From NCBI GenBank assembly GCA_913774665.1, contig CAJYHN010000002.1:558001-622000 (forward strand): 64,000 nt of DNA, given 5' to 3'. The stretch's first letter is position 1; every line of letters begins with the position of its first letter. A program made the translations under genes and the position numbers. Positions 31,877 through 51,728 of this stretch are shown here, piece after piece. The notes below the pieces were generated by a model. That model was not told the origin of the DNA. It worked only from the letters and a program-made list of their open reading frames with translations, and searched no databases. The DNA is from an uncultured Microbacterium sp. GTDB taxonomy: Bacteria > Actinomycetota > Actinomycetes > Actinomycetales > Microbacteriaceae.

Positions 31877-32986
31877 TCAGTCGTCGTCCTTGCGCTTGCG
31901 CCAGCGGATGCCGGCTGCGATCAGACCGTCGAGGTCTCCGTCGAACACGACCGCCGGGTTTCCGACCTCGTATCCGGTGCGGAGGTCCTTCACCAGCTGC
32001 TGGCCGTAGAGGAAGTACGAGCGCATCTGGTCGCCCCAGCTCGCGGTGATCGTGCCGGCGAGCTCCTTCTTCTTGGCCGCCTCTTCTTCGCGCTTGAGAA
32101 GCAGAAGGCGGGTCTGCAGCACGCGCATGGCGGCCGCGCGGTTCTGGATCTGGGACTTCTCGTTCTGCATCGAGACGACCAGGCCCGTCGGCAGGTGCGT
32201 GATGCGCACGGCGGAGTCGGTTGTGTTGACCGACTGTCCACCGGGGCCCGACGAACGGAACACGTCGACGCGGATGTCGCCCTCGGGCACCTCGACCTCG
32301 ACGGCTTCTTCCATGACGGGGATGACCTCGACGGCCGCGAAGCTCGTCTGTCGCTTGTCCGCGCCGCCGAAGGGGCTGATGCGTGCGAGGCGGTGCGTGC
32401 CGGCCTCGACCGACAGCGTGCCGTAGGCGTAGGGCACGTCGACCTCGAAGGTGGCCGACTTGATGCCGGCGCCTTCGGCGTAGGAGGTGTCCATGACCTT
32501 GACCGGATACTTGTGACGCTCGGCCCAGCGCAGGTACATGCGCAGCAGCATCTCGGCGAAGTCGGTGGCGTCGTCGCCGCCCGCGCCGGAGCGGATCGTG
32601 ACGACGGCGGAGCGCGGGTCGTACTCGCCGTCGAGGAGCGTCTGCACCTCGAGCTGGCCGATCACGTCCTTGAGCGCGGCGAGCTCGCGGCGGGCCTCGT
32701 CGGCGGACTCCTCGTCGTCCATCTCGATGGCGAGCTCGACGAGCACCTCGAGGTCGTCGAGGCGCTGCTCGATCTCCGAGACGCGCTTGAGTTCGGCCTG
32801 ACGGTGGCTCAGACGGCTGGTGACCTTCTGCGCGTTGTCGACGTCGTCCCAGAGGTCGGGGGCACCGGCCTCTTCGCTGAGACGATCGATGTCGGCTTTG
32901 AGTGCGTCGACGTCGACCACGGCCTGGATATCGGCGAAGGTCGAGCGCAGCGCCTGGATGTCGGCGGTCAAATCGAGTTCGAGCAT
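31877..32986 (-). CDS. prfB: Peptide chain release factor 2
   Basis: 369 residues. Releases peptides at UGA and UAA. Seen: SPF in [17 protein letters not shown] (about 203-219), the tripeptide that reads the stop codon in RF2, and the catalytic GGQ in [20 protein letters not shown] (about 240-259). The frame is continuous from [11 protein letters not shown], with no internal UGA, so the programmed frameshift of E. coli prfB is absent here. TAGGCT lies nine bases before the ATG. Confidence 0.96.
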
Positions 32987-32995
32987 TTGACATCA

Positions 32996-33001
32996 AGCCT
33001 A
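32996..33001 (-). promoter_or_regulatory. -10 box TAGGCT of prfB
   Basis: TAGGCT on the minus strand, nine bases before the prfB ATG, in the 26-base gap to the divergent MFS gene. Confidence 0.45.
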
Positions 33002-33012
33002 TCGTGGAGACG

Positions 33013-34296
33013 GTGACAGCCGACTCTCCCCGGAACGTGCTGGTGCGCTTCGCACCGATGATCTACGGCCCCACGCTTCTGTTCGCGGTCGGTGAGGGCG
33101 CCGTGATCCCGCTCATTCCGGTCATCGCGAACCGCCTCGGCGCCGACGTCGCTCTGGCCGCCCTTGTCGCCGCGGCCCTCGTCGTCGGCCAGCTCTGCGG
33201 CAATATCCCGGCCGGGTGGGCGGTCGCGCGCTTCGGCGAGCGCGTCACGATGGGCGTGGCCGGCATCGTCGTGCTCGCGGGGTTGCTCGGAATCGTGTTC
33301 GCGCAGTCGCTGGCGTTCTTCACCGCGGCGGTGTTCCTGATCGGCTTCTGCGCGGCGTCGTTCGCCCTGGCCCGTCACTCCTTCATGACGACTCGCGTGC
33401 CGCTCACCTTCCGGGCCCGTGCGCTGTCGCTGCTGGGCGGCACGTTCCGCCTCGGCATGTTCGTCGGCCCGTTCATCTCGGCGGGCCTGCTGGCGATCTT
33501 CGGTGACGAGACGGCATCCATCGTCTTCTTCGCCGTGTGCCAGGTCGCCACGATCCTGCTGGTGTTCTTCGGACCCGATCCCGAGAAGGCCGTCCCGGTG
33601 GGCGCGGGCTCGACCACCCGTCGCGGCGCCGGCGACTCGCGCGATGCCGAAGACACCGGCGAACCCGTCACCGGGGCGATCCCCACCGTCGAGCGCGAGG
33701 GCGTGTTCCGTACGATGTGGCGCTTTCGTGGCGTGCTCGCGCGGTTGGGCCTCGCGGCGTCGTCGCTGTCGGCCGTGCGCTCGGCGCGGCAGGTGGTCCT
33801 GCCGCTGTGGGGCGTGTCGCTCGGGCTCGACGCCGGCACGATCGCCGTGGTCGTCGGCGTCTCGGGCGCGATCGACTTCGCCCTGTTCTACGCCAGCGGC
33901 CAGGTGATGGACCGCTTCGGACGCCTGTGGGCGGCCCTGCCCGCAATGGTTCTGATGGGCGCGGGCTTCCTGGCGCTGTCGTTCACGCACGAGCTGAGCT
34001 CGGCGGCTATGTGGTACGCGATGTTCGCGGCCGTGCTGGGGGTCGGCAACGGACTGTCGAGCGGTATTCTGCTCACCCTCGGCGCGGACGTGGCCCCGCC
34101 CACCGATCCGGCCGCGTTCCTCGGGTCATGGAGGACATTGACGGATGCCGGGGGTGCGGTGGCCCCGCTGATCGTGTCGGCCCTAACGGCCGTGGCATCC
34201 CTGTCGGTCGGGGTGGGAGCGATGGGTCTGATCGCGGTGCTCGGCGCGGCCGGTTTCATCCGCTGGGTGCCCCGCTACGTCCCCCGCACCCGCTGA
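33013..34296 (+). CDS. MFS transporter
   Basis: About 427 residues with 12 hydrophobic segments. Starts VTADSPRNVLVRFAPMIYGP; GTG at 33013 or 33004 are both possible. Seen: GNIPAGWAVARFGERVTMG in the loop 2-3 position. A hydrophilic central loop lies near residues 195-235. Substrate unknown. A degraded copy of its last 30 codons lies 420 bases downstream, beyond a palindrome array. Confidence 0.87.
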   Translation: MTADSPRNVLVRFAPMIYGPTLLFAVGEGAVIPLIPVIANRLGADVALAALVAAALVVGQLCGNIPAGWAVARFGERVTMGVAGIVVLAGLLGIVFAQSLAFFTAAVFLIGFCAASFALARHSFMTTRVPLTFRARALSLLGGTFRLGMFVGPFISAGLLAIFGDETASIVFFAVCQVATILLVFFGPDPEKAVPVGAGSTTRRGAGDSRDAEDTGEPVTGAIPTVEREGVFRTMWRFRGVLARLGLAASSLSAVRSARQVVLPLWGVSLGLDAGTIAVVVGVSGAIDFALFYASGQVMDRFGRLWAALPAMVLMGAGFLALSFTHELSSAAMWYAMFAAVLGVGNGLSSGILLTLGADVAPPTDPAAFLGSWRTLTDAGGAVAPLIVSALTAVASLSVGVGAMGLIAVLGAAGFIRWVPRYVPRTR

Positions 34297-34350
34297 CCTG
34301 CGCTCTCGCGCGGCCCAGCGGTCTCGCTGAGACCCTGCGCTTCGCGCTTG

Positions 34351-34664
34351 ACTTGCCGCACATGGTCGCCCGCGCGGCCGAGGAACGACCATCACAGGCA
34401 AATGACGCGCGCCTCGCCAGCGCCCCGGCCTTTCATTTGCCGCACATGGTCGCTTGACCGGCCGAGGAACGACCATCTCAGGCAAATGACGCGCGCCTCG
34501 CCCACCCCGGCCCTTGCATTTGCCGCACATGGTCGCCTCCGGCCCCCATAAGCGACCATGTCGGGCAAACGAAACCCCACGCCCGTTCCCGCACCCCGCC
34601 CCGGCCTCCCACTTGCCGCACATCGTCGCCCGCAGCCCCGACAAGCGACCACGCCAGGAAAACG
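34351..34664. repeat. Palindrome array A, four copies
   Basis: Four elements at 34351-34404, 34434-34489, 34517-34572 and 34611-34664, spaced 83, 83 and 94 bases. Each reads TTGCCGCACATGGTCGC, about 15 loop bases, then CGACCAT or GCGACCA and GGCAAA(T/C)GA. Outer and inner arms pair; an ACAT-like internal loop separates them. Same family as array B at 46.8-47.4 kb. Confidence 0.9.
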
Positions 34665-34714
34665 AAACCCAACGCCCCTTCCCCATCCCCACACCCCGGC
34701 CCGCAACCGGCCTC

Positions 34715-34855: not shown

Positions 34856-35896
34856 TCACTCCGAGACGCGAATCAGCACCTTCCCCAGGGCACCCTGCTC
34901 GACGGCATCGTGCGCCGCCGCCGTGTCGTCCAGGGAGAACCACGTCAACGGAAGCCCCGCGTCATCGCCCACCGGCAGCGCGCCATCGGCGACGGCCGCG
35001 GCGACGTCCTCGGCGGCGGCGAGCAGCGCCCGCTCCCCCACCGTGTACAGCAGCAGGCCCTGCCAGCGCACGTTCTTCGCGAAGCTCTCGCGCACGCGGG
35101 CGGTGAACTCCGCCCCGCCGTTGTCGGCGTAATAGCCGATGGTGCCGTGATTCGCGACGACCTCGACGTCGAGAGCGGCGTTGTCCGCGATCGCGACCTC
35201 GACGATGTGCTCCACGCCGTTGGGGGCGAGTTCCCGGATGCCATCGGCCAGCGCCTCGCTCGGATACTGCAGCACGTGGTGGGCGCCGGCGGCCCGCGCG
35301 AGGGCTTCCTTCTCGTCACTGCTGACCGTGGCGATGACCGTCGCCCCGGCCCACACCGCGAGTTGGATGGCCGCGTGCCCCACCGCTCCCGCACCGCCCT
35401 GCACGAGCACCGTGCGACCGGCGAGGGCGCCGGGGGCCAGGCGCGAGGGTCCGTCCTCGTGCACGGTGAGCGCACGGTGCGCCGTCATCGCGGGCACGCC
35501 GAGGCTCGCGCCGAGCTCGAACGAGGCGTCGTCGGCCAGCGGCACGGCGCGCGCGGCGGGCAGGATCGTGTACTCGGCCGCCGTGCCGAACGGACGCTGG
35601 TGCGCCGCGAGGTAGATCCACACCCGCTGCCCCACCGACAGATCGGTCACGCCGTCGCCGACGGCATCCACCACTCCCGCTCCGTCCTGGTTCGGCGTGA
35701 CCTCGTCGAACGGCAGGGGGCGGCCGGTCGTCGCGCGTGCCTTCCAGTCGGTCGGATTGACGCCCGACACGACGACGCGCACGCGCACCTCGCCGGGTCC
35801 GGGTTCGGGCAGGGGCTTGTCGACCAGCGAGAGGACGGAGGAGTCGCCGGGCTGGGAGTACGTGATCGCCTTCATGGAGGGGGAAACGGATGCCAT
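34856..35896 (-). CDS. NADPH:quinone reductase / MDR alcohol dehydrogenase-like
   Basis: About 346 residues of the zinc-independent medium-chain dehydrogenase type. Seen: MKAITYSQPGDSSVLSLVD at the start, VVSGVNPTDWKAR, NQDGAGVVDAVGDG, and the cofactor motif VLVQGGAGAVGHAAIQLA near 163-180. The structural-zinc cysteines are absent, as in quinone reductases. Start could be the ATG of MASVSPSMKAI (used) or of MKAI. Divergent from tRNA-Leu. Confidence 0.85.
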   Translation of the reverse strand: MASVSPSMKAITYSQPGDSSVLSLVDKPLPEPGPGEVRVRVVVSGVNPTDWKARATTGRPLPFDEVTPNQDGAGVVDAVGDGVTDLSVGQRVWIYLAAHQRPFGTAAEYTILPAARAVPLADDASFELGASLGVPAMTAHRALTVHEDGPSRLAPGALAGRTVLVQGGAGAVGHAAIQLAVWAGATVIATVSSDEKEALARAAGAHHVLQYPSEALADGIRELAPNGVEHIVEVAIADNAALDVEVVANHGTIGYYADNGGAEFTARVRESFAKNVRWQGLLLYTVGERALLAAAEDVAAAVADGALPVGDDAGLPLTWFSLDDTAAAHDAVEQGALGKVLIRVSE

Positions 35897-36002
35897 GGCG
35901 CCCAGCATTCCCTTTCGGCGTGTGACACGCGGTGAAGAGCCACCGGGTTGACGGCTGCTTCACATCGTGAGAGCACGACGCACGCTTAGACTGAGCACAC
36001 TC

Positions 36003-44903: not shown

Positions 44904-45299
44904 GTGTGCCGAACTTCTGAGGAATCGAGCCGTTCGCTGGTGGGCGGGGGCGGGCGGGCGGGAGTCGGGCGGGCGGGGGTCGGGCGGGGGTCGGGCGGGC
45001 GGGGCTCGGGCGGGGGTCGGGCGGGGGGCGGGCGGGGGGGGTGTGCCAAACTCCTGAGAAATCGAGCCGTTCGCGCGCGGACGGCACTTCTCGCCGCTGT
45101 CCGGCGCGAAAACTCAGGAGTTCGGTACGACGGGCGGCGAGGCAGACTCTTTAGAAATCGAGCCGTTCGCGGCCGGGCGGGGGTGGGGCCGGCGGGGGTC
45201 GGGCGGGCGTGGGGGTGTGCCGAACTCCTGAGAAATCGAGCCGTTCGCGCGCGGACGGCACTTCTCGCCGCTATCAGGCGCGAAAACTCAGGAGTTTGG
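44904..45299. repeat. Repeat family C: two full and two partial hairpin elements
   Basis: Full copies at 45041-45127 and 45214-45302 share about 88 bases with only a handful of changes. Each is bounded by CC(G/A)AACTCCTGAG and CTCAGGAGTT(C/T)GG. Left-half copies occur at 44904-44938 and about 45146-45170. The repeats fill the gap between the divergent murI and pncB genes. Confidence 0.88.
44941..45040 (+). repeat. G-run tract (GGGCGGG)n
   Basis: About 100 bases of G-runs (GGGCGGG, GGGGGTCGGGCGGG and similar) on the plus strand between two type C copies. It meets the usual pattern for G-quadruplex formation many times over. Confidence 0.75.
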
Positions 45300-45369: not shown

Positions 45370-46695
45370 ATGAGCCGTAGCACCGCCCTGCACACCGACC
45401 GTTACGAACTCACGATGCTCGACGCGGCGCTCCGCGACGGCACGGCCTCGCGCCGCTGCGTATTCGAGGTCTTCGGTCGCCGCCTGTCGGGCGGGCGGCG
45501 GTTCGGCGTCGTCGCGGGCACGGGACGGTTGCTCGAGGCGATTCGCGACTTCCGCTTCGGCGATGACGAGCTGCGCTACCTCCGCGACAACCGGGTGGTG
45601 GATGCCACCACCCTCGACTTCCTCGCCGACTACCGCTTCACCGGCTCGGTGACGGGATACCGCGAGGGCGATGTCTACTTCCCCGGGTCGCCGTTGCTGA
45701 CCATCGAGGGCACCTTCGCCGAGGCGGTGCTGCTCGAGACGCTGGCCCTGAGCATCTTGAACTACGACTCCGCCGTCGCCACCGCCGCCGCCCGCATGAC
45801 CGTGGCCGCGGGTGACCGTCCCCTCGCCGAGATGGGCTCACGACGCGCGAGCGAAGAGGCCGCCGTCGCCGCCGCGCGCGCGGCGTACATCGCCGGGTTC
45901 TCCTCGACGAGCAACCTCGAGGCCGGACGCCGCTGGGGCGTACCGACCATGGGCACCGCGGCCCACGCGTGGACGCTCCTGCACGACACCGAAGAAGACG
46001 CCTTCCGCTCACAGATCGAGGCCCTCGGCCCGGGAACCACCCTGCTCATCGACACGTATGACATCCCCGAGGGTGTGCGCACGGCCGTGCGTGTCGCGGG
46101 CACGGAGCTGGGTGGGGTCCGGATCGACTCCGGCGACCTGCCCATCGTCGCGGGCGAGGTGCGCGCGCTGCTCGACGAGCTCGGCGCAACGAAGACGCGG
46201 ATCACCGTGACGAGCGACCTCGACGAGTACGCGCTCGCTGCTCTCGCGGCATCCCCCGTCGACTCGTACGGCGTCGGGACCTCGGTCGCGACCGGGTCGG
46301 GAGTTCCGACAGCGGGCCTTGTCTTCAAGCTCGTCGCCCGCGAAGCCGCCGACGGTTCATGGGTGGGTGTGGCCAAGGCATCCGCTGAGAAGGCCTCGCA
46401 CGGCGGACGCAAGGCCGCCTTCCGCACACTCGACGCCGGCACCGCGACCTCGGAGCTGATCATCGTCAGCGACGGTTTCGAAGAGCTTTCGACCGCGGCC
46501 GAGCACCCCGACGCCCGCGCCCTGCAGACGACGCTGATGGAGAACGGTGAGCCGGATGCCGCCTCCCTCGGCGCAGCGGGAGTGCAGGCCGCTCGGGCTC
46601 ATCACTCGCGCGTCCGCGAGGAGCTGCCCGTGCGCGCGCTCGCGCTGAGCAAGGCCGACCCCGCGCTGCCGACGGAGTACCGCGACGCGGAGTGA
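45370..46695 (+). CDS. pncB: Nicotinate phosphoribosyltransferase
   Basis: 441 residues. Joins nicotinate to PRPP for NAD salvage. Seen: LHTDRYELTMLDAALRDG near 7-24, a central EMGSRRASEEAAVAAARAAY, the phosphoribosyl pocket region STSNLEAGRRWGVPTMGTAA then HAW (about 179-201) with the expected His, and TYDIPEGVRTAVRVAG then GVRIDSGDL near 232-258. Monocistronic; a repeat array lies downstream. Confidence 0.95.
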   Translation: MSRSTALHTDRYELTMLDAALRDGTASRRCVFEVFGRRLSGGRRFGVVAGTGRLLEAIRDFRFGDDELRYLRDNRVVDATTLDFLADYRFTGSVTGYREGDVYFPGSPLLTIEGTFAEAVLLETLALSILNYDSAVATAAARMTVAAGDRPLAEMGSRRASEEAAVAAARAAYIAGFSSTSNLEAGRRWGVPTMGTAAHAWTLLHDTEEDAFRSQIEALGPGTTLLIDTYDIPEGVRTAVRVAGTELGGVRIDSGDLPIVAGEVRALLDELGATKTRITVTSDLDEYALAALAASPVDSYGVGTSVATGSGVPTAGLVFKLVAREAADGSWVGVAKASAEKASHGGRKAAFRTLDAGTATSELIIVSDGFEELSTAAEHPDARALQTTLMENGEPDAASLGAAGVQAARAHHSRVREELPVRALALSKADPALPTEYRDAE

Positions 46696-46711: not shown

Positions 46712-47485
46712 GCGTGAGGGGTCGAGAACTGTCGCCTCGCGCGCGTGAACCGCGGGAGCACATGCGCCACTCCATGACCCTCAGCAGGTTCATTTGGCGC
46801 AGATGGTCGCCGGCGGGTCCGCGCAGCGACCACATGCGGCAAACGAAACCGGGGCACCGCCACCGCGCGAGCGCCACTCCACCACCCGCACCAGGTTCGT
46901 TCGCCGCACATGGTCGCCAGCCGGGCTGAGCAGCGACCACGTCCGGCAAGGCAAATGAAACCGGGGCGCGGTCACCGCGCGTGCGGCGCGTCCACCACCC
47001 TCAGCAGGCTTATTTGCCGCACATGGTCGCCAGGCGGGGCCGCACAGCGACCACATGCGGCAAACGAAACCCGGGCACGGCCACCGCGCGTGTGTACTCC
47101 ACCAGCCTCACCGGGTTGATTTGCCGCAAATGGTCGCCGGCGGGGCCGCGCAGCGACCACGTGCGGCAAACGAAACCGGGGCACGGCCGGCGCGCGTCCG
47201 CCACCGCGCGTACGCCACTCCACCACCCGCACCGGGTTCACTTGCCGCACATGGTCGCCGACGGGCCCGCGCAGCGACCACATGCGGCAAACGAAACCGG
47301 GGCATGGCCATCGCGTGCGCGCCACTCCGCCACCCGCACCGGGTTCATTTGCCGCGAATGGTCGCCAGCGGGACCGCGCAGCGACCACGTGCGGCAAATG
47401 AGGCGAAGGGCCCCGCGCACGGGCGCGGAAACGCGCGTTAGGGGCCGAAAAATGTCGCTGGGCGACACTCTTCGACCCCTCACGC
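46712..47485. mobile_element. Possible TIR-bounded repeat cassette
   Basis: GCGTGAGGGGTCGA (46712-46725) recurs inverted at 47472-47485, 14 of 14 bases. Seven more bases pair a little further in (TGTCGCC at 46730-46736, GGCGACA at 47461-47467). The 774-base interval contains no gene, only palindrome array B. No target duplication is evident and no transposase is present, so a mobile origin is a hypothesis. Confidence 0.4.
46791..47401. repeat. Palindrome array B, six copies
   Basis: Elements begin near 46791, 46898, 47011, 47118, 47239 and 47346 (spacings 107, 113, 107, 121, 107). Consensus: TTTGCCGCACATGGTCGC, 15 loop bases, GCGACCACATGCGGCAAA. The arms pair as 8 bp outside and 6 bp inside, with ACAT on both strands between them. 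Outer flanks ACCGGGTT and AAACCGGG also pair. Fills the gap between the convergent pncB and DUF3039 genes; same family as array A. Confidence 0.92.
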
Positions 47486-47499
47486 GGGGTGCGAAACCC

Positions 47500-47766
47500 T
47501 CAGTTGATGAGGGACTCGTAGATCTCTTTGCACTGCGGGCAGACGGGGAACTTCTCGGGGTCGCGCCCCGGCGTCCACTTCTTGCCGCACAGCGCACGCA
47601 CCGGCTTGCCGCTGAGGGCGGACTCAAGGATCTTGTCCTTCTTCACGTAATGCGAGAAGCGCTCGTGATCACCGGGCTCGATGTTCTCTTCGCGGATGAG
47701 CTCTTCGAGCTCACGATCCAGGGTCGCGAGACCCCCGCTGTCAGGACTGTCGAGAGGCGTGCTCAT
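47500..47766 (-). CDS. DUF3039 family protein
   Basis: 88 residues, small acidic protein. Seen: LDRELEELIREENIEPGDHE near 17-36, VRALCGKKWTPGRDPEKFPV near 56-75, then CPQCKEIYESL. The CG...CPQC cysteines look like a zinc-ribbon half. Widespread in actinobacteria, function unknown. It is convergent with pncB across array B. Confidence 0.88.
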   Translation of the reverse strand: MSTPLDSPDSGGLATLDRELEELIREENIEPGDHERFSHYVKKDKILESALSGKPVRALCGKKWTPGRDPEKFPVCPQCKEIYESLIN

Positions 47767-49380: not shown

Positions 49381-51728
49381 TCGAGGCCCTCCACGTCGCC
49401 GAGCCCACCGGAAAGCTCGCGGAAGCGCTCCTCGAGCGTTCCTTCGCCGCGCACCTCGTCGACGGTGCCCTCGGCGAGCACCTGACCCGAGACGATCACG
49501 GCGACCCGCGAGCAGACGCGTTCGACGAGCTCCATGCCGTGGCTCGAGAGGATGACCGTTCCGCCGTGTTCGACGTACGTGCCGAGGATGTCGAGGATGA
49601 CGCCGCTCGAGACGGGGTCGACGGCTTCGAACGGCTCGTCGAGCACGAGCAGGCGCGGCGAGTGGATCATCGCGCCGGCGAGCATGACCTTCTTGGTCAT
49701 ACCGGCGGAGTAATCCGAGACCGGGCGCGACAGCGCTTCGACGAGGTCGAACGCGCGGGCGAGGTCGGCCGTGCGGCTCTCGACGAGCGGAGCGGGAAGC
49801 CCACGCAGGGCGCCGTAGTACGACAGCAGCTGTCGGCCCGTGAGCCGGTCGAAGGTGCGCAACCGGTCGGGCAGCACACCGATGAGCTTCTTCGCCTCGC
49901 GCGAGCGCTTGCCCGCGTCGACCCCGTTGATCGTGACGGTGCCGCGATCGGGTCGCAGCAGTCCCGCGATGATCGAGAGGGTCGTGGTCTTGCCGGCACC
50001 GTTGGGGCCGACCAGACCGTAGAACGCACCGGCGGGAACGGTCAGGTCGATCGCGTCGACCGCCCGCAGCTCGCCGAAGCTCTTCGTGATCGTCCGGAGG
50101 GTGAGAGCGGGGACGGCGGTCTCGACATCGGATGCCGTGGCCCCCTCGACCGCGGGCGCAGCCATGACCGCGGCGGACTCGAGGTCGTCGCCATGGCGCG
50201 CAGAGTCGCTGTTCTCGTCGTCGCTCGTCTCGGCCGGGGCGACGGCGAACACGGCCGTCTCGGGCGCAGCGGCGTCGGACGCCGAGTCGGTGGCGGCGCC
50301 ATCGACGAGCAGGACGGACTCGTCCGACCCCGGCTCAACCTCGCCGACGCGCACGTCAGCGGGAGTCGGGTCGTGTGGCTCGGCCGCACCGTCGATGTCG
50401 GATGAGACCTCGGTCCGGGCGTCGTCCTCGAGCGGCGTCTCGGTGACGATCTCGGCGGCCGACTCGGCGGCGAACGCCGAGACAGGCTCGGACCCCGCCA
50501 CAGACGCGTCGACCGACCCGGACTCCGACACAGACACGTCGGCGGGCTCGATCACAGGCTCCTCGACGGCGACATCAGCGGGCGTGGGATCAGCCACAGG
50601 CTCCCCCTCGGCGGGGATCGCCGAGACAGGCTCGGACCCCGCCACAGACGCGTCGACCGACCCGGACTCCGACACAGACACGTCGGCGGGCTCGATCACA
50701 GGCTCCTCGACGGCGACACCGGCGGGCGTGGGATCAGCCGCAGCCTCCCCCTCGGCGGCGAACGCCGAGACAGGCTCGGACCCCACCACAGACGCGTCGA
50801 CCGACCCGGACTCCGACACAGACACGTCGGCGGGCTCGATCACAGGCCCCTCGACGGCGACATCGGCGGGCGTGGGATCAGCCGCGGGCTCCGCCTCAGT
50901 CGGGTCCTGGTCGGCGACAGCCGAACCCGGCTCGGGCTCCCCGACCGCCATCGTCCCCGCGGGCTCCGCAACTGCCGCATCAGCCGGCGTCACCTCGTCC
51001 GCAGACGCGGCAGCCTTCTCACCCGGCAGCGGCGGGCGCGGGGGCACCACGATGTCGTCGGGAAGAAGCGGCGGGATGCCAACACTCGGCGCAACCGCAT
51101 CGACCGCCGTCGTCGAGGCATCTTCGTCGGACGCTTCGCGAGCTGCAGCCTTCGCCGCTGCTGCCTTCGCCGCCGCCGTCTGGCGCGGCGCGGCGGGCTT
51201 CTTGGGAACCGCCGGCTTCGCTCCTGCCGTCGGCTTCGCTCCCGCAGCCGGCTTCGCTCCGGCAACCGGCTTCGCTCCGGCAACCGGCTTCGCCCCGACC
51301 GCCGGCTTCGCCCCCACCACCGGCTCCGCCCCCGCAGCCGGCTCCGCTCCGGCAACCGGCTTCGCTCCCGCGGCCGTCGAGGCTCCCGCGGCCTTCGAGG
51401 CGGCCGTGGTACGCGGGGCAGCGGGCTTTCGCGGAGTGGCGGGCTTCTTCGCGGCGGCCGTGCGGGCGGTCGCAGACGTGCCCGAGGCGGCGCGCGCGGC
51501 CGTCGTGCGCGGAGCGCGCGGCTTCGCCGGGGGCTTCGGCGCCGTGGGCGACCCGGACTCGGCATCGTCCGACGCGGCCGCCGCAGTGGGGCGCCGGGGC
51601 GCACGCGGGGTCGTCGTCCGCGGAGCGCGGGGCTTGGGCGGGGGCGTCACCGAGGCTTCGGCGCTCGCCGACGCGCCCTCGGTATCTGAAGAGGACTTTT
51701 CGGGGGGCACCGGCAGCGACGCTGTCAT
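49356..51728 (-). CDS. ABC transporter ATPase with ~540-residue repetitive N-terminal extension
   Basis: 790 residues; ordinary ATPases of this type are about 300. Residues 1-240 are Ala/Lys/Pro-rich like histone H1 tails, with AGAKPV/AGAKPA hexapeptides. 240-540 is acidic, with 48-residue repeats containing EPVIEPADVSVSESGS. The ATPase is about 545-790: Walker A GPNGAGKTT, signature SDYSAGMTKKV, Walker B LLVLDEPFEAVD and H-loop LSSHGME. TAGTTT lies six bases before the ATG, which supports the distal start. Confidence 0.85.
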   Translation of the reverse strand: MTASLPVPPEKSSSDTEGASASAEASVTPPPKPRAPRTTTPRAPRRPTAAAASDDAESGSPTAPKPPAKPRAPRTTAARAASGTSATARTAAAKKPATPRKPAAPRTTAASKAAGASTAAGAKPVAGAEPAAGAEPVVGAKPAVGAKPVAGAKPVAGAKPAAGAKPTAGAKPAVPKKPAAPRQTAAAKAAAAKAAAREASDEDASTTAVDAVAPSVGIPPLLPDDIVVPPRPPLPGEKAAASADEVTPADAAVAEPAGTMAVGEPEPGSAVADQDPTEAEPAADPTPADVAVEGPVIEPADVSVSESGSVDASVVGSEPVSAFAAEGEAAADPTPAGVAVEEPVIEPADVSVSESGSVDASVAGSEPVSAIPAEGEPVADPTPADVAVEEPVIEPADVSVSESGSVDASVAGSEPVSAFAAESAAEIVTETPLEDDARTEVSSDIDGAAEPHDPTPADVRVGEVEPGSDESVLLVDGAATDSASDAAAPETAVFAVAPAETSDDENSDSARHGDDLESAAVMAAPAVEGATASDVETAVPALTLRTITKSFGELRAVDAIDLTVPAGAFYGLVGPNGAGKTTTLSIIAGLLRPDRGTVTINGVDAGKRSREAKKLIGVLPDRLRTFDRLTGRQLLSYYGALRGLPAPLVESRTADLARAFDLVEALSRPVSDYSAGMTKKVMLAGAMIHSPRLLVLDEPFEAVDPVSSGVILDILGTYVEHGGTVILSSHGMELVERVCSRVAVIVSGQVLAEGTVDEVRGEGTLEERFRELSGGLGDVEGLEWLHTFSA
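50476..50895 (-). repeat. 144-bp tandem repeat inside the ABC ATPase gene
   Basis: Units start at 50476, 50620 and 50764, exactly 144 bases (48 codons) apart and nearly identical. They encode the acidic Ser/Glu/Val/Ala-rich repeats. Copy-number change would stay in frame. Confidence 0.88.
51214..51375 (-). repeat. 18-bp tandem repeat inside the ABC ATPase gene
   Basis: Nine 18-base units based on GGCTTCGCTCCGGCAACC (plus strand), encoding the AGAKPV-type hexapeptides of the basic region. Units 3 and 4 are identical; others differ mostly at third positions. Confidence 0.85.

Follow-up and report, generated by a model that had tools for sequence, protein, structure and literature searches.

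A tandem cluster of REP-like palindromes in a Microbacterium genome and a candidate cognate DUF559 nuclease

Between two convergent genes of an uncultured Microbacterium sp. lies a run of hairpins (here array B), and the question posed by this locus is what these repeats are and which enzyme, if any, serves them. The stretch of DNA analyzed here (the window; 64,000 nt, positions 558,001 to 622,000 of contig CAJYHN010000002.1) had been given a sequence-only reading, in which the hairpins filled a mobile cassette and might represent a new repeat family, a protein-binding array, or a structured RNA. This interpretation is partly supported. Our own answer is that array B is probably a local tandem cluster of REP-like dispersed palindromes (here fam1) served by a cognate nuclease of the DUF559 family.

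Array B contains six copies of a palindrome between convergent genes

The array and its neighbors are laid out as follows.

45370-46695 (+): pncB, nicotinate phosphoribosyltransferase, convergent neighbor to the left of array B
46789-46847 (+): array B fam1 unit 1, 59 bp
46896-46954 (+): array B fam1 unit 2, 59 bp
47009-47068 (+): array B fam1 unit 3, 60 bp, with one additional base in the loop
47116-47174 (+): array B fam1 unit 4, 59 bp
47237-47295 (+): array B fam1 unit 5, 59 bp
47344-47402 (+): array B fam1 unit 6, 59 bp
47500-47766 (-): DUF3039 gene, convergent neighbor to the right of array B

The six hairpin elements reported earlier were all recovered, with half-site starts 107, 113, 107, 121, and 107 bp apart, and TRF called the array at 46763-47398 with a period of 107 and 5.8 copies. 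Allowing at most one mismatch, the core pattern GGTCGC-N15-GCGACC matches 10 times in the window against 2.48 matches expected (none of 100 shuffles reached 10), and five of the 10 fall within array B. Units are 59 bp long in five cases and 60 bp in the sixth. A loop of constant length had been described, which holds for five units (15 nt) and fails for one (16 nt); the supposedly constant ACAT on both strands is looser, reading ACAT or ACGT on the right and AGAT, ACAT, AAAT, or GAAT on the left. The array was said to contain no gene, and indeed the five ORFs that overlap it have no Pfam match at an E value of 0.1. All six units fold better as RNA than the mean of their shuffled counterparts (z of -1.97 to -7.26). 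An Rfam search of the window returned four hits, none of them within array B, where no family exceeded its cut-off.

The supposed terminal repeats belong to a second hairpin family

Two further features frame the array, both of them from a second hairpin family (here fam2).

46712-46741 (+): left half of a fam2 hairpin (GAGGGGTC..TGTCGC), previously taken as a left terminal inverted repeat
47434-47486 (+): complete fam2 hairpin, whose right arm was previously taken as a right terminal inverted repeat

These two features underlie the proposal that array B is the interior of a 774-bp, MITE-like cassette bounded by terminal inverted repeats of 14 plus 7 bp. The repeat itself is real (46712-46741 against 47456-47485, 83% over 30 nt), and a perfect 14-bp inverted repeat at both ends speaks for a cassette, but these sequences are not cassette ends. 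Over 25 nt (GAGGGGTCGAGAACTGTCGCCTCGC), the left one is identical to a unit beside a fam2 DUF559 gene elsewhere in the genome. Since the right arm comes from a complete fam2 hairpin and the left from another fam2 half, the pair bounds no single mobile unit. Moreover, fam2 hairpins stand alone at other sites in the genome and at the pncB-DUF3039 site in relatives, and a flanking direct repeat of at least 3 bp, as expected of a target-site duplication, was found at none of 25 distinct fam2-type hairpins from this genome and its relatives (the test covered fam2-type hairpins). We rejected the MITE-like cassette, whose probability we regard as close to negligible.

The same intergenic site in relatives shows what has changed there. 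The pncB relatives indicate a genome of the Microbacterium testaceum type. Sites without the array, which the earlier reading had advised looking for as empty sites of the cassette, are the rule: among 81 pncB-DUF3039 sites (the window and 80 relatives), 79 lack fam1 units, and fam1 is confined to the window and strain StLB037. At three of the array-free sites (L011, L012, and L024), there is a fam2-type hairpin only. StLB037, whose PncB is 97% identical, also has a fam2-type hairpin at the site and shares the gene order, with three fam1 units against six and similar spacers, so the copy number of array B changed in place. The fam1 array thus sits inside a fam2 site and has gained or lost units since the window strain and StLB037 split. 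At the site in Microbacterium enclense NIO-1002 (L024, matched to contig C2 of genome G050), the hairpin is of the GAGTCGCC type, which fits the arms beside the DUF559 gene of G050 itself.

fam1 is a dispersed family of fixed-length palindromes

Half-sites of fam1 cluster at five places in the genome, namely, C2:214 kb, C2:437 kb, array A, array B, and C8:39 kb; outside these clusters, there are three single matches with 2 to 3 mismatches. Each unit consists of two inverted half-sites (approximately TTGCCNNANRTGGTCG) at fixed spacing, with a GC-rich loop between them and an asymmetric mismatch patch in the stem. When half-site cores of 42 to 60 bp were permitted in pairing, the 33 units from six arrays (five in this genome plus that of StLB037) had a core of 49 bp in 31 cases, 50 bp in one, and 48 bp in one. 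Array A lies in the window as well.

34348-34406 (+): array A fam1 unit 1
34432-34490 (+): array A fam1 unit 2
34515-34573 (+): array A fam1 unit 3
34608-34666 (+): array A fam1 unit 4

Like array B, array A is flanked by convergent ORFs, at 32902-34296 (+) and 34856-35908 (-), and it has its own spacers, with periods of 83 to 93 bp. Array periods across the family are 74, 81 to 84, 83 to 93, 105 to 106, and 107 to 121 bp, and spacers vary from array to array, the exception being array B and its counterpart in StLB037. Units resemble one another more within array B, C2:214 kb, and C2:437 kb (0.79 to 0.85) than between these three (0.57 to 0.72), whereas array A (0.75 within) and C8:39 kb (0.65 within) show no such excess.

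The arms hardly vary among 31 fam1 units; columns 11 to 15 are unlike between the two arms. Pairing was about what shuffled partners give at most positions and slightly above it at positions 22, 24, and 28. Arms without covariation are the outcome that the sequence-only reading had named beforehand as counting against its structured RNA, and covariation gives that suggestion no support. Near-invariant arms with shuffle-like pairing are better explained by two half-sites read by a protein than by a conserved RNA fold. The suggestion of a new REP-like repeat family, on the other hand, is supported and can be narrowed to palindromes scattered over the genome, for which there is a candidate gene of a cognate nuclease.

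Other repeats were noted along the way. A third palindrome type occurs in two copies in the window (45049-45122 and 45223-45296), with arms AACTCCTGAG and CTCAGGAGTT that resemble in style the AACTCCTGCA arms beside the DUF559 gene of locus L101. Three 144-bp tandem repeats with a 95% match (50463-50897) lie in the extended N-terminal portion of an ORF resembling, by eye, an ABC transporter ATPase. Loci L010 and L108 hold another dispersed repeat, TTCGACAGGCTCAG, in both orientations and in four copies each.

Palindromes bracket the DUF559 genes of this genome

The fam1 cluster at C8:39 kb brackets a gene for a protein of about 320 amino acids, with an N-terminal region and a C-terminal MTES_1575/DUF559 Vsr-like PD-(D/E)XK nuclease domain; the fam2 cluster at C4:228 kb brackets another DUF559 gene. 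With the PF04480 profile, six genes of this genome exceeded the DUF559 cut-off (five of the six in a protein scan), and by eye all six have palindromic repeats on both flanks, with six different arm sequences. Only the fam1-associated protein exceeded the cut-off of MTES_1575 (PF18741), at 40.5 bits against 38.2. A sequence search of solved structures with this protein found none at an E value of 1, and an NCBIfam search gave nothing near any cut-off. At an E value of 1e-4, a DUF559 gene was absent from the window, from the 80 pncB loci, and from L162 and L165, with the positive controls L091 and L161 detected; array B would therefore be served in trans.

These proteins could instead be DNA-binding regulators or chromosome organizers related to AbiEi antitoxins, with the palindromes as operators or binding arrays whose copies are not mobile. 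AbiEi_4 matches the N terminus of three of the six proteins, all weakly and below cut-off, and PADLOC gives weak AbiEi matches for five of the six. Two half-sites at nearly invariant spacing are what a dimer on duplex DNA would read, and within fam1 it is sequence rather than pairing that is conserved. However, the acidic active-site residues E219, D251, and D278 are kept in 100, 99, and 100% of 77 aligned DUF559 proteins (79 candidates with two dropped, mostly of about 275 to 345 amino acids), and hairpins lie past the 3' end of the gene as well as upstream of it. Because arrays A and B, the two whose neighbors were checked, sit between convergent ORFs, an operator role is improbable for them. 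We consider the regulator reading unlikely overall.

Alternatively, the arrays may be transcribed into a structured RNA that the nuclease binds, in the manner of a type III toxin-antitoxin antitoxin RNA or a guide RNA. Type III toxin-antitoxin systems have a tandem-repeat antitoxin RNA, whose array is found immediately upstream of the nuclease gene and nowhere else. The likeness is that tandem repeats adjoin a nuclease gene here too, and the folding scores given above agree with an RNA. Yet the repeats here are palindromic, lie on both sides of the gene (at several loci as a single unit per side), and are also dispersed in trans: six DUF559 genes stand against fam2 half-sites at no fewer than 14 places, and the window has no DUF559 gene. 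Together with the Rfam result and covariation not beyond that of shuffles, this leaves the RNA reading very improbable. The partnership of a DNA palindrome with a nuclease remains our preferred reading.

Gene-specific repeats flank DUF559 genes across the genus and beyond

PF04480 was present in all 59 Microbacterium genomes searched and in 76 of 99 genomes of the order. We compared the left and right 600-bp flanks of the best PF04480 match from 40 of the 58 other Microbacterium genomes with 320 control windows. At 33 of 40 genes, a repeat common to both flanks scores above the 95th percentile of controls, and at 30 of 40, above the 99th; seven of the 40 genes had no shared repeat above the 95th-percentile mark. 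A strict inverted-repeat detector, requiring outer arms with at least 11 of 12 bases paired, called both sides at 44 of 64 DUF559 loci, one side at 19, and none at one, compared with 16, 80, and 104 of 200 control windows. The 64 loci are not independent, because 18 of them were picked as homologs of the fam1-associated protein, and the detector called only two of the six DUF559 genes of this genome two-sided. Read by eye, 17 of a set of 18 homologs have hairpins on both sides and the last, near a contig end (L150), on one. Fifteen of 20 further loci held a gene like the fam1- or fam2-associated protein, again by eye, with hairpins on both sides in 14 and on the left only at L172.

The flanking repeats are specific to their gene. 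The median best score is 59.5 between the left and right flanks (600 bp) of one DUF559 gene and only 27 to 28 between flanks (450 bp) taken from different loci whose proteins are less than 40% identical, from which this specificity follows. Several DUF559 homologs have one and the same neighbor, an HTH-type gene as judged by eye, and nevertheless carry unlike arms. At the loci read here, the arms of a DUF559 locus are mostly its own, and they differ beside the same neighboring genes when the protein differs.

Outside Microbacterium, the pattern is less uniform. The order-level flank test returned 30 loci, from which three of Microbacterium were set aside; 14 of the remaining 27 lie above the 95th-percentile mark, the number that exceed all 40 of their own shuffles is likewise 14, and 13 of the 27 have no shared flank repeat above the mark. 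At two of the strongest loci, the repeats look direct rather than palindromic. In L195 and L194, from other families of the order, the DUF559 flanks share tandem direct repeats (for example, GGTTTCAACACGATTCCGTCCACCTCCC) with no obvious palindrome.

Arms partly follow the protein and diverge quickly

A homolog in genome G103 that is 81% identical to the fam1-associated protein has fam1 arms at a locus that is otherwise dissimilar (in the L103-L146 comparison, flanks score 72 near the gene and 24 far from it). The G103 contig ends at L146 within the hairpin array adjoining the DUF559 gene, so draft genomes may represent arrays of this kind incompletely. Related arms are found on both flanks of a 43% identical protein in G068. 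Exact fam1 half-sites number zero in G040, G112, and G138, whose proteins are 65, 58, and 55% identical to the fam1-associated one.

The fam2 orthologs at L166 to L171 have the same neighbors as the fam2 gene of this genome, with hairpins on each side. Their outer arm is GAGGGGTC in L166 and L167 and GAGTCGCC in L168 to L171. Across seven fam2 orthologs, seven alignment columns discriminate the two arm types; the GAGTCGCC group is a single clade, and no specificity residue is assigned. Over non-orthologous pairs among 64 loci, protein identity and flank similarity have a rank correlation of 0.04 in a Mantel-type test, matched or exceeded by 28 of 500 permutations. This weak correlation indicates that arms turn over fast.

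Dispersed copies track the arms beside the gene for one ortholog

Exact fam1 half-sites occur in 39 of 198 genomes, mostly singly; three or more were found only in G000 (37), G103 (5), G191 (5), and G131 (3), and G103 is the genome with the nearest protein to the fam1-associated one. G191 has its five half-sites with no close cognate and a P1-like gene (44%) that has other arms, and no DUF559 gene was present in one stretch read around three of the five.

For fam2, there are 37 exact half-sites in this genome; among the matches listed, 29 lie at a minimum of 14 separate places, and 16 of the 29 are in pairs 35 to 36 bp apart. At least two exact GAGGGGTC half-sites were found in six of the seven genomes, counting this one, that have a fam2 protein of at least 63% identity and in 11 of the 191 remaining genomes (Fisher P = 1e-6). 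A sharper comparison came from the four genomes G024, G050, G066, and G197, whose fam2 orthologs have GAGTCGCC flanks, and for which a link between flank arms and the genome-wide count had been predicted beforehand. Counts of GAGTCGCC-N6-TGTCGC place exactly these four at the top of 198 genomes (G197, 63; G024, 62; G050, 29; G066, 19), followed by G083 with 15, and genomes with GAGGGGTC flanks have 9 (G000), 5 (G166), and 5 (G060). The four form one clade by protein identity (71 to 91%); because they share ancestry, the test is inflated and represents fewer than four independent events. Both fam2 arm types are present in G050, G066, and G197; G024 has a fam2 ortholog and zero GAGGGGTC half-sites.

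Another account would be that the palindromes are ordinary terminators or REP-type repeats of unknown origin, among which DUF559 genes merely insert or sit. Convergent ORFs on both sides of arrays A and B and strong hairpin folding would suit such repeats, and hairpin populations with no close cognate gene do occur: GAGGGGTC half-sites number 65 in G008, 31 in G046, and 18 in G055, all genomes with no fam2 ortholog of at least 63% identity. Against this account, the DUF559 loci read here mostly have arms of their own, which differ beside the same neighbors when the protein differs, and in the GAGTCGCC comparison, the hairpins dispersed over a genome match the arms that adjoin its gene. We judge it distinctly improbable. 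As a separate observation, the one DUF559 gene read among the G008 loci L177 to L179, that of L177, carries GAGTGTCC arms despite the 65 GAGGGGTC half-sites of that genome.

Comparison with known systems

The nearest parallel to a palindrome served by a cognate nuclease is the "REPtron," in which REPs or REPINs accompany a RAYT gene. In the excerpts of PMC3116915 and PMC8266576 used here, REPtrons comprise short dispersed palindromes and a gene bordered by repeats of its own type; one group has a mismatch bulge in its stems, tandem arrays occur at some sites, and enzyme and repeat are said to coevolve. The features of the Microbacterium elements with a parallel in REPtrons are cores of fixed length, stems that contain a mismatch patch, genes bracketed by their own repeat, and tandem arrays. 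Here, short palindromes likewise occur at many extragenic sites (the extragenic position was checked for arrays A and B), and a DUF559 gene, taking the place of RAYT as the cognate gene, is bracketed by repeats of its own type. The differences are equally clear. The enzyme is a PD-(D/E)XK protein (DUF559/MTES_1575), and RAYT is an HUH tyrosine transposase, an enzyme that cleaves and joins the single-stranded repeat; fam1 units are 59 bp long, with two half-sites at fixed spacing. Y1_Tnp (PF01797)/RAYT had no match in this genome, with 5 of 14 control genomes positive, and the tetranucleotide conserved beside REP palindromes, GTAG/CTAC, was found within 15 bp outside none of 33 fam1 units. Because RAYT, the GTAG tag, and target-site duplications are absent, fam1 and fam2 are not members of the REP/RAYT class.

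CGTC-tagged REPs are described in the consulted part of PMC3733652 as dispersed, often between convergent genes, and not flanking RAYT genes; they have no dedicated transposase, a matter stated there as open. They differ from fam1 in that CGTC/GACG lies within 15 bp at only one of 33 fam1 units and that a candidate enzyme gene is bracketed here. According to the excerpt of PMC3710099, the founding MTES_1575 protein is a very large fusion, with residue numbers beyond 2000, that also contains HEPN, helicase, and wHTH domains; most of those aligned here have about 275 to 345 amino acids, and that excerpt makes no mention of palindromes. Titles and abstract openings of open-licence articles in PubMed Central yielded no link between DUF559 and palindromes.

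A proposed mechanism

Taken together, the observations suggest a partnership of repeat and enzyme that works like REP/RAYT with an unrelated enzyme. How it would work we infer as follows. A DUF559 protein would recognize its own palindrome through the two half-sites, either in duplex form or as a hairpin that is extruded or single-stranded, and would nick or cut there. Copying during repair may then place palindrome units in further intergenic regions. Where a site is already occupied, unequal recombination could duplicate a unit with its adjoining DNA, so that the resulting tandem array has a spacer of its own. The fam2 hairpins (GAGGGGTC..TGTCGC) would be the same kind of element with another cognate gene.

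A broader reading, offered tentatively as something possible but short of probable, is that a REPtron-like class built on a Vsr-type PD-(D/E)XK nuclease exists throughout the order, with modular reading of the arms and a hairpin population that is rewritten along with the specificity of the gene. Each DUF559 protein would read an outer stem module (GAGGGGTC, GAGTCGCC, GACTCGCC, or GAGTGTCC) and an inner one (TGTCGC, CACGCCG, or TGCGGG), which could change independently, and a change in specificity would lead to a rewriting of the hairpin population genome-wide.

If true, the existence of a nuclease dedicated to dispersed palindromes would assign a testable role to DUF559, a family that is common and whose function is unknown. 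It would also mean that a lifestyle like that of REP/RAYT has arisen with an enzyme of unrelated fold. For some families of palindromic repeats, no enzyme is known, CGTC-tagged REPs among them according to the part of PMC3733652 consulted. Finally, modular change of the arms between related proteins would provide naturally occurring pairs of proteins and DNA specificities.
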